Source of the DNA: a virus
DNA length: 37,125 nt
Reading direction: 5' to 3' (one strand)
IMG/VR virus record: IMGVR_UViG_3300043419_000809
Span: 1 to 37,125 of that record
Positions 2,816 through 23,412 of this stretch are shown here, piece by piece. A model generated the notes under the pieces. It was given only the letters and a program-made list of their open reading frames with translations, did not search any database and was not told the origin of the DNA. Numbering within the stretch: the stretch's first letter is position 1; each line of letters starts with the position of its first letter. The translations under genes and the position numbers were made by a program.

Positions 2816-3201
2816 CCCCCCCTCCCCCTGCATCCATCGGCCCGGATGACATCAGCCCAGAGGTCAAGCAGGCGGGCATCGCCGGACTCCTCGGCATGAT
2901 GGGCATGGCGGTTAAGATCATCCTCACGGACGAGAAACTGTCCATCGGCAAGGTGTGTGCCAACCTGTTTGCGGCTATGGCGGTCGCCGTCCTCTCGGGC
3001 TTCGCGCTAGAGGGCTATGTCCAGAACAAGAAGATGCTCTGGGCGTTGAACGGGCTGTCGGGCTACATGGCCCTCCACATCATCGCTTGGGCGGAGTCCG
3101 CCGTGAAAGCCAGGTTGTCGGGCGAACTGAAAAAGGTAGAGAAGGCCGCAGGTATCACCAAGAAACCCAATGCAAAGCGACCAGCCAAAAGGAAGCGTTG
3201 A
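2812..3201 (+). CDS. Holin-like membrane protein
   Basis: The 129-aa product has an N-terminal Pro-rich segment, hydrophobic stretches around residues 22-38 (IAGLLGMMGMAVKIIL), 46-65 (VCANLFAAMAVAVLSGFALE) and 77-93, and a strongly basic tail ending KRPAKRKR. This size, the membrane segments and the charged C-terminus match phage holins of the LydA/superfamily III type. It is translationally coupled to the HExxH gene by an ATGA overlap and overlaps the next membrane gene by 32 bases. The holin would set lysis timing. I cannot distinguish holin from antiholin. Confidence 0.65.
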   Translation: MTPPPPASIGPDDISPEVKQAGIAGLLGMMGMAVKIILTDEKLSIGKVCANLFAAMAVAVLSGFALEGYVQNKKMLWALNGLSGYMALHIIAWAESAVKARLSGELKKVEKAAGITKKPNAKRPAKRKR

Positions 3202-3499
3202 TACCAACCTGCTCTGGGCGGTGACAATCCTCACGGTCGCCGCCGGGATGAGCGCGCTGGGTTCCGCATGGATTTGCGATACGGTTTTGTCCGCCTTCGG
3301 CAACTCGCAGACGATGGCCCTCATCATCGTGGACGGGGGCAAGGAACTGAAGTCGGACGATGCCAACCTTGAGCGTCAGTTGTCCACCGCAACGGTCGCC
3401 TTGCAGACCATCCGGGATTTCGGCTGGGCTTTGGCTCTGGGGTGCTTCGGCGTTCTGGTGGCGGTGCTGGTCAAGGTGTTCAAACAAAAAGCCCCCTAG
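3170..3499 (+). CDS. Two-pass membrane protein of the lysis cassette
   Basis: The 109-aa protein has membrane segments near residues 14-34 (LLWAVTILTVAAGMSALGSA) and 85-104 (FGWALALGCFGVLVAVLVKV) separated by a charged, probably helical loop. It begins inside the 3' end of the holin-like gene and is the last plus-strand gene before a convergent junction. It may be a second holin component or antiholin. The stop lies within a hairpin that acts as a candidate terminator for the opposite strand. Confidence 0.6.
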   Translation: MQSDQPKGSVDTNLLWAVTILTVAAGMSALGSAWICDTVLSAFGNSQTMALIIVDGGKELKSDDANLERQLSTATVALQTIRDFGWALALGCFGVLVAVLVKVFKQKAP

Positions 3500-3514
3500 G
3501 GCATCCTAGAGGGC
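3491..3514 (-). terminator. Intrinsic terminator of the leftward early operon
   Basis: GCCCCCTAGG and CCTAGAGGGC form a ten-base stem with one mismatch around a GCAT loop. Read leftward, the hairpin is followed by TTTTTGTTTG (complement of 3481-3490), the layout of a rho-independent terminator. It lies about 95 bases beyond the Mom-like stop and overlaps the last codons of the convergent membrane gene. Confidence 0.6.
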
Positions 3515-3609
3515 GTTGTCGGTGTGGCTCTGTGGGGTTATAACATCGTGGTGGGTTAATAAGACCGAGTGGCAAACGGCTCGGTTGTGAACTGCCTAGT
3601 GGCGGAAGG

Positions 3610-4287
3610 TTATTCGGCTTTGGTGCCTTGGTTCTTTGGGTAAGGCAAGACGGGATACTTCAGTTTGTTCATTAGTACCTTCTTCCTAGACTTGGAACAG
3701 TTAAAGTAAATGTACCTGTATTTCATACTGCTGAAATACTCCTCAACCATGTCCTCCCCAAACTGATCTATGATTTCCTGTTTGGTCATCCGTTCCCTCC
3801 TTCGGTATACTGTACCCCCGGAATTGTCGGATTGGTTCTTCGGCCTAAAGTATTTCATCTTCGGGCTGATGCCCGTGTAAAGCCAATTGGTTGCTTGGTA
3901 GATGTATCCAATGTGGCCCTGCTCGGAGTCTGCGAAAGAAACGATGATTTCAAACGGGCATTGTTTCAACGCCTGTCCTACGAAGAAACTTTCTGTGTTC
4001 TTTGGCATGGAGTCATCCACCCACAACCTATTGAACTCAACGACATTCTTGCTCTCATCTTCTCCGCAAATACCGTTGCAAAGCGTGTATGACGATGGTT
4101 TGCCAAATACGATTACACCGACAATCCGGCCTTGTTGGAAAAAATCGTCATTGGTCTGTTCATTCGTGAAAAGACCAAAACTTGCGGAGCATGAACATTC
4201 CCGGTGAAGATAATGGTTCTTCACGATTACATCCATAGCCTGCCGATACTCAATCGGCCTAACATGAAGTTGTCCCTTGATGCTCAT
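3610..4287 (-). CDS. Mom-like GNAT-fold adenine modification protein
   Basis: The 225-aa protein has the layout I associate with phage Mom-family adenine modification (methylcarbamoylation) proteins of the GNAT fold: KNHYLHRECSCS near residue 24, a GVIVFGKPSS strand, GICGEDESKNVVEFNRLWVD, SFADSEQGHIGYIYQATNW, and a C-terminal YRYIYFNCSKSRKK element. In phage Mu the Mom protein changes adenines so that host restriction enzymes cannot cut. The gene is visibly AT-richer than its neighbours. It is the last gene of the leftward operon and overlaps the primase-helicase by four bases. A 21-bp direct repeat flanks it, so its last residues (QGTKAE) equal those of the primase-helicase, a sign of recent gain. 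Family assignment is from motif recognition only. Confidence 0.7.
   Translation of the reverse strand: MSIKGQLHVRPIEYRQAMDVIVKNHYLHRECSCSASFGLFTNEQTNDDFFQQGRIVGVIVFGKPSSYTLCNGICGEDESKNVVEFNRLWVDDSMPKNTESFFVGQALKQCPFEIIVSFADSEQGHIGYIYQATNWLYTGISPKMKYFRPKNQSDNSGGTVYRRRERMTKQEIIDQFGEDMVEEYFSSMKYRYIYFNCSKSRKKVLMNKLKYPVLPYPKNQGTKAE
3612..3632. repeat. 21-bp direct repeat, left copy, flanking the Mom-like gene
   Basis: This stretch begins attcggcttt and ends gccttggt. It is identical to 4286-4306. On the minus strand it encodes the end of the Mom-like protein, QGTKAE plus stop. Recombination between the copies would remove a 674-bp unit carrying the gene. Confidence 0.95.
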
Positions 4288-6272
4288 TCGGCTTTGGTGC
4301 CTTGGTAGAACAGCGCGGGGCCGATCTTCTTCGGCTTGAGGATGCCGTTGGTGACCATGCCCTTTATGAGAGCCTCCGCCTGGTCCAATTGCAAGTTATA
4401 TTCCTTGGTCAGTTCTTCCAGCAGGGCTTTCCGGCTGATCGTGGGCTTGGACGAGAAGTGGGCATACTGCTGGCCCACCTTCAGCAACTCAAAGCCCTCG
4501 ACCATCGGGGCGACCTCCCACAGCACCTTGTGGTCGGCGTGTTTCAACTTGAGCGACAGCGTAGGCTTGCCGTCCACCGTCCGCATCCCAGCCAACTTGC
4601 CGCGCTTGGTCAAGTTGAACGAGAAGATGGGCTTGTCCTTGGACTCGCGCCGGACGCTGATGATGGCGCGCGCCCAGTTTACGAGTTCCGAACTCCCAAG
4701 GCCGCTATATGCCATGTCGGAAATCGTCTGCTCATCGGTCGTCTCCTTGGGCTTCGGCTTACCTTCGTGGTGGATGAACACCATGATGCACCCCGTCTCC
4801 TGGAGGACGGGCTGGACGAGGTTACGCAGGAAGTGGGAGCAGACATCCTGCTTGGATAGGTCACCCCCCACATACGAGAGCAACGGGTCCGCCACCAGAA
4901 CATCAAGTTTGAGCCGCACGATGATCTTGCGGCACAGGTCCACGAAGTCCTTGCCCGTCTTGCTCGCCTCGGTGAAGAACCGCAGGTTCTCCCGGCACAG
5001 TGCGCGCTCCTCGCCCGTCAGCATCATCCCACTCGACACTCCTTGAAAAGCCTCCGCAAGGTCGCCCATATCGCACTCCGCTTGGACCACGCCGATGCGG
5101 AGAGGTCGGATGACAGGGATGCCGAACAACTCCCGTCCCACCGCCCACGAAGTTGCCATCTGCATGACGAACGATGACTTTCCAATTCCAGACTGGCCCG
5201 TGACAAGAAGGCTTCCACCTCGGCAAAGGTACCGACCATGACCAATGACATGGTTCGGGTCGTTCTTCGTGTCGTATGTCTCAAGCGTGTCTGTACGGAT
5301 TTCATCGGGAGCATCCTGCCCCTCCCGCCAAGCGATGAAGGCATCCCAGTCCTCCGCGCCGACATTGAAGGCGATGATGCGTTGCTCTTTCTCGCCACGC
5401 TTGACCCCGCCAAGGCGGGACCATCGGGACGGGTTCTTGTTCTGCGGGTCGGGTTCATGGTCGGCTAGGTATTCGTAGATGGTGTTGCGGCGTTCCTCCC
5501 ATTGGGTCTTGTCGGCGGCATCGACCCGCACCCAGGCGTGGATGGACTTGCCGCCGGAGTCCACCAGCAGGCTGATGGGCAGGTTGGACTGCTGGAAGAT
5601 GCCAATCTGCTCGTCCTTGGACTTCTTATCGAACTCGACCAGCACATGGCGATACGAGGCCACGGCGGAGTCCGTACCCGTGAAGTCATCCTTGGCGAAC
5701 GGGTTGATGCGTATCCAAGCCCCCTGCTCTGACTCGGCAAAGTGCTTGCCCTGCTTGGCACCGGGGCCGAAGAACTTGGTCAGCCACTCGGCGCGCGTGA
5801 TGAAGATGCCCTTGGAGGCGGGGAAATAGCGACCATCCTCGGACTGCCCCGCCTCGTTGGTGATGCAGATCACATCCTCGTCCTTGAAGCAGTTGAGCAG
5901 GACATCGGCGGTCGAGTACGGAGTCTGGTTGTCAACCATCTGCGCCAGCACCGTGGGGTCGAACACGAAGCGACCGTTGGCCCCCACCTTGCGTTCCTTC
6001 CCAGCGGTGAGCCAGCCCTTCGGCTTCTCATGCGGCTTGACGAAGGCATCGTTCAACTTGTGGCGGAGTTCCTTCTCGCCCCACGGCGGTGAACAATGGG
6101 ACTTGTTCCACTCGTTGAGAAGCATCCAGGCATCATCGTAGCCGAGGTCGAACCCGTTGGCGAGGATGCTGGCGGCGCGGTAGGTGGCGGGGTGTCCGCC
6201 CTGCCCGGAGTTGGCGGGCGGCAGTTTGGCGAGGTAAGCCCTCGCACCCGTGATGCGGTCTTGGATGGTCAT
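4284..6272 (-). CDS. Primase-helicase (archaeo-eukaryotic primase plus RecA-type helicase)
   Basis: The 662-aa replication protein has three parts. The N-terminus (about residues 1-85) resembles the PriCT-type module that accompanies phage primases. The middle carries archaeo-eukaryotic primase motifs: VEFD near 212, DSGGKSIHAW near 238-247 and the basic NPSRWSRLGG near 280. The C-terminal half is a RecA-fold hexameric helicase (AAA_25/RepA type) with Walker A GQSGIGKS near 359-366, Walker B-like LDVLVADPL and the VFIHHEGK segment. It would prime and unwind at the phage fork. A GTG at 6305, four bases after the upstream stop, is an alternative start adding 11 residues; ATG at 6272 is preferred. 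The last residues YQGTKAE match the end of the next gene. Confidence 0.85.
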   Translation of the reverse strand: MTIQDRITGARAYLAKLPPANSGQGGHPATYRAASILANGFDLGYDDAWMLLNEWNKSHCSPPWGEKELRHKLNDAFVKPHEKPKGWLTAGKERKVGANGRFVFDPTVLAQMVDNQTPYSTADVLLNCFKDEDVICITNEAGQSEDGRYFPASKGIFITRAEWLTKFFGPGAKQGKHFAESEQGAWIRINPFAKDDFTGTDSAVASYRHVLVEFDKKSKDEQIGIFQQSNLPISLLVDSGGKSIHAWVRVDAADKTQWEERRNTIYEYLADHEPDPQNKNPSRWSRLGGVKRGEKEQRIIAFNVGAEDWDAFIAWREGQDAPDEIRTDTLETYDTKNDPNHVIGHGRYLCRGGSLLVTGQSGIGKSSFVMQMATSWAVGRELFGIPVIRPLRIGVVQAECDMGDLAEAFQGVSSGMMLTGEERALCRENLRFFTEASKTGKDFVDLCRKIIVRLKLDVLVADPLLSYVGGDLSKQDVCSHFLRNLVQPVLQETGCIMVFIHHEGKPKPKETTDEQTISDMAYSGLGSSELVNWARAIISVRRESKDKPIFSFNLTKRGKLAGMRTVDGKPTLSLKLKHADHKVLWEVAPMVEGFELLKVGQQYAHFSSKPTISRKALLEELTKEYNLQLDQAEALIKGMVTNGILKPKKIGPALFYQGTKAE
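4286..4306. repeat. 21-bp direct repeat, right copy, flanking the Mom-like gene
   Basis: This copy is identical to 3612-3632 and encodes the last residues and stop of the primase-helicase on the minus strand. It looks like the ancestral copy, because the helicase must have had this end before the Mom-like gene arrived. Confidence 0.95.
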
Positions 6273-6309
6273 GGTGGCGAGGCGGACTTTGCCCGCACCA
6301 ACCACGCCG

Positions 6310-11928: not shown

Positions 11929-12714
11929 TTAGGACTCCTCGTTGTAGAACGCCCACTTCGGGAGCGTGATGGTCTGGATAGTCTTGGAGTATCCGGGCCA
12001 GTTGTTGTACAGCGAACACTCACGGTAGGTCAAGCAGGCACTCGTCATCATCCGCTTGCCGGACTCCAAGGCTTCGGCATCGAGTTCGTACACCGCCCAA
12101 TCGAACGGAGCCTTCTTCTCGACCGCCACGAAGAAGAACCGCTTGGCCCCCGTCATGTGCAGGTAGAACGCCGCCTGGAGGTTGTACTTGTACTTGGCGA
12201 CATCCTTGGCGAAGGACTCCGCACCAGCGTCCATCGTGGTCTTGATGTCGATGATCGCGCCGCCGTCCGCATGGTGCAGGATGAGGTCGGGGCGACCCTT
12301 GATGTTCGCCCCCTCATGCTTGCCCGTCACGATGTGTTCCTTCAACCGGACGGCATCGGGATACATCGAGGCAATCGTCTCGATGCCAGCCTGCGCGCCT
12401 TCGGCAATCGACATGACCTCATCCATCTCCTCTTGGTCGAGGTACTCCTCGCCCTCCTTGAGCGTGGCGAGAAACGCCTTCTTGATGGCCTTGCCTTCGG
12501 TCGTGCGGGCATCCCAAGTGGGAGCCAGCCGCACCTGCTTGTCGAACACATGGGGTTCCAGCGAGGCGAGGTGGACGAGCCGACCCAACTTGAGGGCCGG
12601 GGTTTCTTCGCGCTCCGCCTTCAGCCAGGCTTGGTAGGCCAGCGGGGACTTGAGGATTTCCTTGGCACCCGAGTAGTTGAGTGCCTTCGTTTCGTTGTAT
12701 GCTTGGTGGCTCAT
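11929..12714 (-). CDS. RecE-like PD-(D/E)XK exonuclease
   Basis: The 261-aa protein has the pattern of phage RecE/Cas4-type nucleases: an N-terminal ALNYSGAKEILKSPLAYQAW, KLGRLVHLASLEP, GRPDLI (140-145, metal-binding Asp143), DIKTT (156-160, D-x-K) and YNLQAAFYLHM (177-187). Such exonucleases degrade one strand of a double-strand end to load the annealing protein. It lies between RecT-like and ssDNA-binding-like genes and starts in an ATGA overlap with a 38-codon gene. Confidence 0.85.
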   Translation of the reverse strand: MSHQAYNETKALNYSGAKEILKSPLAYQAWLKAEREETPALKLGRLVHLASLEPHVFDKQVRLAPTWDARTTEGKAIKKAFLATLKEGEEYLDQEEMDEVMSIAEGAQAGIETIASMYPDAVRLKEHIVTGKHEGANIKGRPDLILHHADGGAIIDIKTTMDAGAESFAKDVAKYKYNLQAAFYLHMTGAKRFFFVAVEKKAPFDWAVYELDAEALESGKRMMTSACLTYRECSLYNNWPGYSKTIQTITLPKWAFYNEES

Positions 12715-12827
12715 TTGTTGTTCTGGTGGAAAAGGTAGGTGATGTAGCAGAGGCCGATTACGGCGACCGTGAAGGACAGGAAGATGAGCATATGCTCAAG
12801 TTCCTTGGGTTCGATGGTGATGGTCAT
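12711..12827 (-). CDS. Micro-membrane protein between recT-like and recE-like genes (38 aa)
   Basis: The ATG at 12827 overlaps the RecT-like stop (TAATG) and the TGA at 12711 overlaps the RecE-like start (ATGA). The product starts MTITIEPKELEHM, has one membrane span (LIFLSFTVAVIGLCYITYLF) and ends HQNNK. Coupling on both sides makes it a credible gene. It may tether recombination proteins to the membrane or act on the host; no family is recognised. Confidence 0.65.
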   Translation of the reverse strand: MTITIEPKELEHMLIFLSFTVAVIGLCYITYLFHQNNK

Positions 12828-13612
12828 TAGATGGTGGCCTCGTATTCGGCTTTGACGGCGGCGGCGAAAGCCTGCGACCGCTTCGGGTGCGACAGCGTGG
12901 CGGAAAGGGTATCGGGAATGTCTGCCCAGCCCTGCGCGTCAGTCAAGTGACCGACCTTGCGGAGAACCCGGACGGCGGCTTCGCGCTGGAACTCGGGGAT
13001 GATGTCCTCAAGGGAGTTCGACACCTCGATGACCCTCGACTGGATGCCGCCCAGTTCCTCGACCGTGATGAAGGAACACTCCGGGGCGACCAGACGGACA
13101 CCTTCCGAGATGGCGCGCGCCGTCAGCATCTGCTTGGGCCACTTCTTCCAGTTGTCCTTCACCGTCTTACCGTCCTTGCCAAAGACGATGCCCTTCTTGG
13201 CGTAGTCATCGAAGGATGCGGTAATCTCGGCGGACGACCCCTTGTTCGTGAATGTAGCCACAACGAGCGTGTCGGTGCGCGTGGTCCACACGACCGTACC
13301 GCCAGCCATCTGGAACTTGGCGAGCAGGGCATCCGACTTGATGGCGAGTTTGCCCTCGATGAAATGGTAGGTGCGCGCCAGTTCCAGCGGCGACTTGCGT
13401 TCCGCCAGGCATTGCATGGCGAGGACTTCCCCGATCTCCGGCTTGTCCACGCCGAAGATGCCGGACTTGAAGATGGCGGCACCCAGCGTCTTGATGGCCT
13501 GCATCGGGTCGCTGATGCGGTCGTAGACGGCGAGGCTCGACAGTTCGTGGGTGTTCATGGGAGCGAGGGGGATGACCTCGCCCGGTTCGGGCTGGTTGGC
13601 TTGGTGGCTCAT
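12827..13612 (-). CDS. RecT-like single-strand annealing protein
   Basis: The 261-aa protein shows the central pattern of RecT-family annealing proteins: EIGEVLAMQCLAERKSPLE, FIEGKLAIKSDALLAKFQMA and WKKWPKQMLTARAISEGVRL followed by VAPEC. RecT anneals complementary strands in phage recombination, usually with a RecE-type exonuclease as here. The ten-base leader after the upstream stop is CTTTCCCACC and has no Shine-Dalgarno sequence. Confidence 0.85.
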   Translation of the reverse strand: MSHQANQPEPGEVIPLAPMNTHELSSLAVYDRISDPMQAIKTLGAAIFKSGIFGVDKPEIGEVLAMQCLAERKSPLELARTYHFIEGKLAIKSDALLAKFQMAGGTVVWTTRTDTLVVATFTNKGSSAEITASFDDYAKKGIVFGKDGKTVKDNWKKWPKQMLTARAISEGVRLVAPECSFITVEELGGIQSRVIEVSNSLEDIIPEFQREAAVRVLRKVGHLTDAQGWADIPDTLSATLSHPKRSQAFAAAVKAEYEATI

Positions 13613-21917: not shown

Positions 21918-22543
21918 GCGAACGCCCACGACCCATCGACATCGCCGGACGGCTTGGCATCTCCAAGCAACTCGTCAACGCCTACATCACCCAAGGGATG
22001 CCCATCGACTCCATCGAGGCGGCGGAGTCTTGGGTCATGTCGAGGCGCGCCGTCCGTGGAGGGTCGCAGGCCGGGGTCACCAGCGACAGGGACTTCAACG
22101 AGACGGTCGAGCGTCAGCGCGAACTGAAGGCTCTGGCCCACCGCAAGTACCTAGACGACCTCGCCAACGACTCGCCCGATGCCAGCAAGTCCTACTCGAC
22201 CTATGACAAACTGGTAAAGACGCTCATCACGATGGAGAAGGAACTCCACGCGCGCCAGATCGCCAGCCGTGAGTTCATCCGCACCCAGACCGCCATCGAG
22301 CGTTTCGGCAAGATACTGACCAACCTCCGCAACGAGTTGACCCAACTCGGGACCAAGGTGGCATCGAGGGCGAACCCAGACCACCCGGGGCGCGCGTTGA
22401 AGGCCATCGATGAGGAGATCACCCGCATCCTGTCCCGTGTGAGCGAGGCGGTGGCGGAGTCCGAGGAGGAGGTCAAGATGCCCGAGGCCGACCCAATTGA
22501 GGTTGACGGCACTACCGAGGAGGTCGATGATACCGAAGAATGA
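21914..22543 (+). CDS. Terminase small subunit (Nu1-like)
   Basis: The 209-aa protein opens with a helix-turn-helix (DIAGRLGISKQLVNAYITQG, MPIDSIEAAESWV) like that of Nu1-type small terminases, followed by a long helical part (ETVERQRELKALAHRKYLDD, YSTYDKLVKTLITMEKELHA) and an acidic tail. The small subunit recognises phage DNA for the large subunit. The order small subunit, large subunit, gpW-like, portal, protease matches lambda. A PP-loop gene intervenes before the large subunit. Confidence 0.8.
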   Translation: MSERPRPIDIAGRLGISKQLVNAYITQGMPIDSIEAAESWVMSRRAVRGGSQAGVTSDRDFNETVERQRELKALAHRKYLDDLANDSPDASKSYSTYDKLVKTLITMEKELHARQIASREFIRTQTAIERFGKILTNLRNELTQLGTKVASRANPDHPGRALKAIDEEITRILSRVSEAVAESEEEVKMPEADPIEVDGTTEEVDDTEE

Positions 22544-23412
22544 GTTATTTCGAGCCACCCCCCCCCACAAAATACACCGTACTGAACCTAGGTGCTGGTG
22601 TGCAATCTTCCGCGCTCGCTTTGATGGCGGCTAAAGGAGAAGTTGGCCCTATGCCGGACTTTGCCGTGTTTGCCGACACACAGGCCGAACCAACGAGCGT
22701 CTACAAGTGGCTCGACTGGCTGGAGACGCAGTTGCCGTTCCCCGTGATCCGTGTGACCAAGGGTAGCCTAACGGAAAGCATCTTGAAGATTAGGATTAAA
22801 GAAAAGTGCAAGTATTCCGAAGCACCCATGACTTACCTTCGAACGAACATCCCTGTTTATGGACTAACACCAAGCGGAGAAGTTCGCCCTGCGTTGGGTC
22901 GTGCTTGTACTGCTGACTTTAAGGTGGCTCCAATTTTGAAGGAAATCAGAAAGCGTTGCCAGATTAAGCATGGTCAGAAAGATGTAACCGTTACTCAATG
23001 GATTGGCATTTCCTATGATGAGATGCAACGGATGAAACTACCGAGTAACGCTTGGACGCAACACCGCTGGCCTTTGATTGAAAAACGGATGACCCGTACT
23101 CATTGTAAAGATTGGATGGTTAAAAATGGTTACCCAGAACCTCCTAGGTCTGCCTGTTACTATTGCCCATTCCATGATGATGATGAATGGCGTAGACTAA
23201 AGAAAGAAGATCCAGAACATTTTGCCAAGGCTGTCGAGTTCGACAAGACATATCGCAGGCTTCAAAATGAGAACCCTGGAGGTTTGCGTATTGAGGTTTA
23301 TCTGCACAAGTCCTGCAAGCCGCTGGATGAGGTGGATTTCGACTCCGATCCAGATTGCGGTCAGATTGACTTCGACTTCAAATCCGAGTGCGAGGGTATG
23401 TGCGGACTGTGA
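22540..23412 (+). CDS. PP-loop (PAPS-reductase/DndC-like) protein between terminase genes
   Basis: The 290-aa protein has an N-terminal PP-loop variant LNLGAGVQSSALAL (residues 15-28) in place of SGGKDS, then FADTQAEP and FPVIRVTKGS, RACTADFKVAPI (Cys123) and RSACYYCPFHDDDEW (Cys206, Cys209). This is the pattern of PAPS reductase-like adenine nucleotide alpha-hydrolases, a family that includes DndC of DNA phosphorothioation and tRNA sulphuration enzymes. The three Cys may bind an iron-sulphur cluster. The gene is less GC-rich than both terminase genes and overlaps them (ATGA, GTGA), so it appears gained. Substrate unknown; DNA modification before packaging is an inference. Confidence 0.7.
   Translation: MSYFEPPPPTKYTVLNLGAGVQSSALALMAAKGEVGPMPDFAVFADTQAEPTSVYKWLDWLETQLPFPVIRVTKGSLTESILKIRIKEKCKYSEAPMTYLRTNIPVYGLTPSGEVRPALGRACTADFKVAPILKEIRKRCQIKHGQKDVTVTQWIGISYDEMQRMKLPSNAWTQHRWPLIEKRMTRTHCKDWMVKNGYPEPPRSACYYCPFHDDDEWRRLKKEDPEHFAKAVEFDKTYRRLQNENPGGLRIEVYLHKSCKPLDEVDFDSDPDCGQIDFDFKSECEGMCGL

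Follow-up and report, generated by a model that had tools for sequence, protein, structure and literature searches.

Mom-family DNA-modification gene in a phage cargo slot was probably joined to its operon through a second copy of the primase-helicase gene end

Introduction

Mom proteins belong to the GNAT superfamily, and their reaction at adenine N6 has been called momylation in work on jumbo phages (PMC7824862). In phage Mu the com gene overlaps mom, and the structure of Mu Mom (PDB 8bv8) is described as that of the inactive mutant S124A. Short duplications that tie a cargo gene to its neighbour have been described in mycobacteriophages (PMC3029335). The 3′ ends of Island3 genes 67 and 68 have 60 bp in common, such that the cargo gene copies the 3′ end of the gene upstream and the C-terminal 18 residues are alike, with a single copy in the relative Brujita. 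In LRRHood, a 1.35-kb insert of four genes, including a repressor, sits at a gene end between 29-bp direct repeats, of which relatives have one copy. Short conserved boundary sequences have also been linked to phage mosaicism (as cited in PMC3029335), the shared gene-end sequence serving as the exchange point, and measurements of recombination between homeologous sequences by Red proteins have led to its proposal as a source of such mosaicism (PMC2327257).

The locus analyzed here lies in a viral sequence of 37,125 nucleotides (IMG/VR record IMGVR_UViG_3300043419_000809, positions 1 to 37,125; hereafter the window). Like the repeat-bounded mycobacteriophage cargo, its Mom gene is missing from close relatives that have the two neighbouring genes, and it is flanked by direct repeats that are single in relatives; as in Island3, the cargo copies the 3′ end of the gene upstream. 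In contrast to the Island3 pair, which is one case with a cargo of unknown function and a longer repeat, and to the four-gene LRRHood insert, the cargo here is a single DNA-modification gene, and unlike the boundary sequences, the shared stretch flanks one gene at either end and forms part of two coding sequences. The mark of joining is of a known kind, with single precedents in mycobacteriophages. We consider it likely that a Mom DNA modifier occupies a cargo slot in this phage and was lately joined there via a second copy of the primase end.

Results

The gene at 3610-4287 (minus strand) encodes a protein of 225 aa that the earlier note had called Mom-like, and profile searches, which could have placed it in another GNAT family, returned the Mom family instead. 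The match to Pfam Mom (PF25680; E = 6e-43, 147 bits against a curated cut-off of 27) covers positions 2-201 of the 202 in the profile, phrog_1384 is matched with E = 2e-53, and a sequence search of the PDB gave Mu Mom (8bv8) as the sole match (E = 1.7e-11). Identity to Mu Mom is about 30%. An AlphaFold2 model of the protein (pLDDT 85.6) resembles 8bv8 with a Z of 19.5 and an rmsd of 3.5 over 182 residues, as against a Z of about 12 for the next GNATs. In an alignment of 47 Moms that includes Mu's, 28 positions show a conservation of 90% or more, and the equivalent of Mu S124, S100 in the window protein, is invariant across all 47. The other motifs of the conserved active-site region, HY, ENR, SxAD, YQAxN and PYPK, are likewise present (H25, Y26, E84, N86, R87, S100, S117, D120, Y130, Q131, N134, Y216, P217, K218). 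Because GNAT folds are common, the protein could conceivably be a GNAT of another function that does not modify DNA; the gap between the two fold scores, the full-length Pfam match and the conserved S124 equivalent make this extremely improbable. By its sequence and modelled fold, the window protein is a true Mom-family enzyme, and, going by what its family does, its most likely role is to modify adenines of the DNA of the phage itself and thereby shield that DNA from host restriction. Mu Mom ends at PYPK, whereas the window protein carries an extra tail, NQGTKAE, of which residues 221-225 have a pLDDT below 50, so that the copied tail is predicted to be disordered.

Directly upstream lies the primase-helicase gene (4284-6275, minus strand; PF13481 6e-16, phrog_2597 3e-55), whose listed reading frame begins at 6305 and for which relatives favour an ATG at 6275 (MTIQDRI). 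GCCACC precedes this start (6276-6281), as it does many relatives' primase starts, with no clear Shine-Dalgarno sequence (GCCACCATG). The 3′ ends of the two genes bear an exact 21-bp repeat (ACCAAGGCACCAAAGCCGAAT on the minus strand), at 4286-4306 in the primase and at 3612-3632 in Mom, and a check of the frames bore out the earlier statement that each copy encodes QGTKAE and a stop. The primase ends ...FYQGTKAE-TGA (TTC TAC CAA GGC ACC AAA GCC GAA TGA) and Mom ends ...YPKNQGTKAE-TAA (CCA AAG AAC CAA GGC ACC AAA GCC GAA TAA). No third copy was found with up to three mismatches allowed and none of 100 shuffled sequences held such a repeat; the pair is far beyond chance. An assembly fluke is unlikely, since a contig from another dataset (L001) has the same arrangement, with 3 mismatches over 4,940 bp. 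The low GC content that had been remarked on was also confirmed, Mom having 45.0% against 60.6% for the primase and 58.1% for the window, lower than each 650-nt stretch sampled in the window.

Primase and Mom overlap by 4 nt at their stop and start codons (ATGA, 4284-4287, minus strand), where in Mu it is com that overlaps mom; no overlapping regulator like Com was noticed at this locus. This overlap is conserved in 20 other slot Moms, and the arrangement makes translational coupling of primase and Mom likely. A consensus scan found no promoter-like site on Mom's strand, and Mom shares with the operon a hairpin resembling an intrinsic terminator at 3491-3514 (minus strand), common to Mom-less relatives, although the scan also gives about one site of this kind in shuffled sequence. 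Between Mom and the hairpin is a 93-bp spacer (3517-3609, minus strand) for which a search of relatives returned L001 and no other; it holds a possible short hairpin of its own (ACCGAG...CTCGGT). A convergent small gene (3170-3499, plus strand) forms the other boundary of the slot. The unit consists of Mom and the spacer only, with no transposase, integrase or homing nuclease.

To place this arrangement, 80 contigs fetched by the primase and 80 fetched by Mom served as the set of relatives. The stretch between the primase-helicase 3′ end and the operon terminator is a slot that, in the 80 primase-related contigs, holds Mom in 21 (L001 included), a C5-methyltransferase-like gene in 3 (phrog_757 1.5e-32, PF00145), a DruA-like gene in 2 (PF14236 8e-15, PADLOC DruA 1.6e-21) and no recognised gene in 54, where "Mom-less" means that no Mom lies in the slot behind the primase and many contigs are fragments. 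Since the stop of the convergent gene overlaps the primase stop in several empty relatives, the empty slot has a length of zero in these. The earlier proposal that Mom had been gained as cargo with the operon end kept is supported, in that close relatives are without it or have another gene in its place.

Wherever Mom follows the primase directly, which is the case in 21 contigs, the left junction is ATGAGCATC, so the left end of the cassette is shared, and the right ends vary. In most relatives Mom ends with YPKK and two variable residues, after which come a stop codon and terminator region that Mom-less relatives have immediately behind the primase (GCCTAG-GAAGCCCG, GCCTAG-CCGCCCCG, GCCTAA-AGACCCCC). 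Flanking repeats of note were found neither around the methyltransferase and DruA-like slot cargo nor around other genes of the window, where the best was 16 of 18 at the RecE gene (score 12). The methyltransferase-like cargo (L008, L075, L080) occurs in two primase clades that are about 70% identical. The DruA-like (Druantia, DUF4338) gene lies at 1257-2099 of L088, between primase and Mom, and is also present in L070, a contig that ends after it; the end of this gene, GACGCATGAGC, is similar to the primase end.

On a maximum-likelihood primase tree parsimony requires 12 changes of the Mom state, and branches with good support make at least 7 of them unavoidable. Contigs with and without Mom occur together in each of two sets of identical primase proteins. 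L029 (Mom) and L027 (no Mom) have flanks 98.7% and 98.2% identical over 2.9 and 1.8 kb, and two further presence/absence pairs have flanks at 99.5% and 97.7% (L052/L053) and at 99.5% and 95.7% (L060/L061). The phage most similar to the window around the slot is L075, which holds 1,372 bp of the primase at 98.2% identity and matches the other flank at 97.0% over 1,816 bp, from window position 3510 downward. The main difference between the two is that L075 has a methyltransferase where the window has Mom and the spacer. Thus, "recently gained" is supported for the window lineage by flanks 97-98% identical to those of a methyltransferase-bearing relative, and Mom in the slot is old in the wider group. 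With the spacer counted, the window has about 770 bp more than its closest relatives, rather than the 674 bp originally given.

The Mom protein is 87-91% identical to those of the 72-80% identity clades, which reflects constraint, because third codon positions of Mom are only 44-49% identical to these clades; those of the primase are 53-57% identical. A recent transfer from the sampled relatives, hinted at by 89% protein identity, was rejected on the same third positions. GC3 is 0.57 for Mom against 0.81 for the primase, and the composition and third positions suggest that the window Mom probably came from an unsampled source of lower GC content. One alternative is that Mom is ancestral in the slot, that the Mom-less relatives are independent losses, and that the tail arose through replacement of a resident Mom's end by that of the primase. 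Mom and primase divergence being roughly similar among the 72-80% identity clades, and the left junction being the same in both clades, this scenario is conceivable; the greater third-position divergence of the window Mom, its lower GC3 and the lack of Mom in the primase sisters of the window phage nevertheless leave it doubtful.

As to the origin of the second copy, nucleotide homology with most other slot Moms stops exactly where the 21-bp copy begins (query base 656 of 678), and the tails of other Moms are unrelated and mostly short. A Q/E-G-T-K end, in turn, is found across primases that are 70-100% identical, Mom-less relatives have the same primase end, and the repeat is single-copy in L008 and L075 and, with one change, in L002. 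Because homology to Mom ends at the repeat, Mu Mom ends at PYPK and the primase end is widespread, these alignments indicate that copying ran from primase to Mom. No exact single-copy precursor of the window arrangement was found among the relatives. The likeness of the primase end across such distances might also mean that this end has a job of its own at the operon terminus, as an RNA signal or protein tag, and that the copy was kept for it; other slot Moms, however, end without QGTKAE and keep the downstream region, and, the tail being predicted disordered, such a role seems very unlikely.

Does the repeat drive gain and loss of Mom? It occurs only in the window phage and the near-identical L001. 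In 20 relatives Mom lies equally far from the primase and shares no more than 5-7 bp with the primase end, yet they gain and lose Mom; relatives of this sort were what the earlier note had named as refuting its reading, and the repeat was therefore rejected as a general driver. Loss between the repeats would produce a scar (GAATAACCTTCCGCC...), and a search for it as GARTAACCTTCCGCCAC gave 5 matches, of which only L001 is a relative. Mom-less relatives of the window clade have other sequences after the primase stop and so do not stem from the window arrangement by repeat-mediated loss. Precise loss by recombination, also suggested earlier, stands as something that the repeats would permit, and no relative carries its trace. 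A stronger version would have the repeats act as working homology arms, with the unit leaving as a circle and re-entering by recombination as a small mobile cassette. A repeat of this length could suit annealing of the RecET/Red type, for which the phage encodes RecE- and RecT-like proteins, and mirror-image duplications at the primase start (L006, L163) have counterpart sites without an upstream Mom (L005, L066). Given the same on/off pattern in the 20 repeat-free slot Moms and the missing scar, we regard such a cassette as unlikely. The repeat is a mark of the join, and neither a dedicated mobility site nor the motor of turnover in the family.

The window repeat belongs to a broader pattern of Moms that borrow the start or stop of a neighbour. 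Downstream cargo copies the 3′ end of the upstream gene over 21 bp in the window phage, 13 bp in L090 and 14 bp in L098, the last taking in what may be a ribosome-binding site. Cargo that lies upstream instead copies the 5′ end of the gene after it: the primase start in L163 (25 of 25 bp) and L006 (19 of 20), 36 bp with 33 alike in L092, before a gene that is DnaB-like by eye, and 23 bp in L167. In relatives with no upstream Mom (L005 for L006, L066 for L163), the left copy corresponds to the position of the primase start. Where upstream-type Moms stand next to other genes their N-termini differ, in keeping with borrowing of the neighbour's start.

Flanking repeats scoring at least 13 were found for 8 of 106 distinct non-tandem Mom genes on viral contigs, compared with 3 of 324 size-matched control genes of the same contigs (Fisher p = 0.0009), a p-value that overstates the case in that 5 of the 8 positives were already known when the test was drawn up. 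The individual instances carry more weight than this p-value. Large scores also came from the tandem Moms of L128, which were left out, and from a false start assignment in L135, a contig absent from the final positives.

Several relatives, among them L006 (1626-2315), L163 (1414-2103), L039 (1084-1773) and L074 (3753-4439), have directly upstream of the primase a Mom of another type, with about 35% identity to that of the window, its first codons copying the primase start (MTIQDRI, MTTEDRIS); L039-L041 and L045 have Mom on both sides of the primase. In L137 a 27-bp repeat surrounds Mom (1438-2184), with one copy in non-coding sequence upstream and the other at the Mom stop, and so is not of the neighbour-end type. 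The three tandem Mom genes of L128 (4923-7125), with a junction repeat of up to about 105 bp, suggest recent tandem amplification.

Discussion

In the reading that we prefer, a Mom cassette of lower GC content would have entered the window lineage recently by recombination, the Mom core becoming fused at its end to a duplicate of the final 21 bp of the primase gene. The join would have provided Mom with its QGTKAE tail and stop codon and left both genes whole, in a layout that is that of an insertion with a short target duplication. The most likely agents may be short-homology annealing by the RecE/RecT-like pair, or illegitimate joining, with selection for intact gene ends presumably following. 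Circumstantially, short-homology recombination would be available to this phage because it encodes a RecE-like exonuclease of the exonuclease VIII family (11929-12714, minus strand; phrog_412 1e-62), a RecT-like single-strand annealing protein (12827-13612, minus strand; phrog_561 2e-13), an SSB and a Holliday junction resolvase. Stop-start coupling at the ATGA would probably tie the expression of Mom to that of the replication genes, such that the modifier is made as the DNA is copied.

The locus shows at base-pair resolution how an anti-restriction gene can join an essential operon with neither gene harmed, and the natural pairs with and without Mom, with flanks 98-99% identical, make Mom's value against restriction measurable. 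We further put forward, as a tentative generalization that we would not yet favour, that Mom cassettes, and perhaps other single-gene cargo, enter beside replication genes via a recurring 13-36 bp duplication of the neighbour's end, the cargo borrowing a start in the upstream slot or a stop in the downstream slot and the neighbour staying intact. If so, short-homology annealing proteins would make neighbour-end duplication a general route for gaining and swapping anti-restriction genes, and copying of this kind would be a partial answer to how phage mosaics join so neatly at gene ends.

A literature search for Mom in phages of Verrucomicrobiota found no paper in the collection searched. A contig of a Verrucomicrobiota MAG (L161) carries a 99% identical primase fragment, which is a hint to the host only, as binning can err. 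Elsewhere in the window, a PAPS-reductase-like gene of low GC content (22540-23412; phrog_424 4e-43) lies between the small and large terminase genes and is possibly another cargo, and long collagen-like Gly-X-Y repeats at the window start (5-1693) belong to a probable tail-fibre protein.
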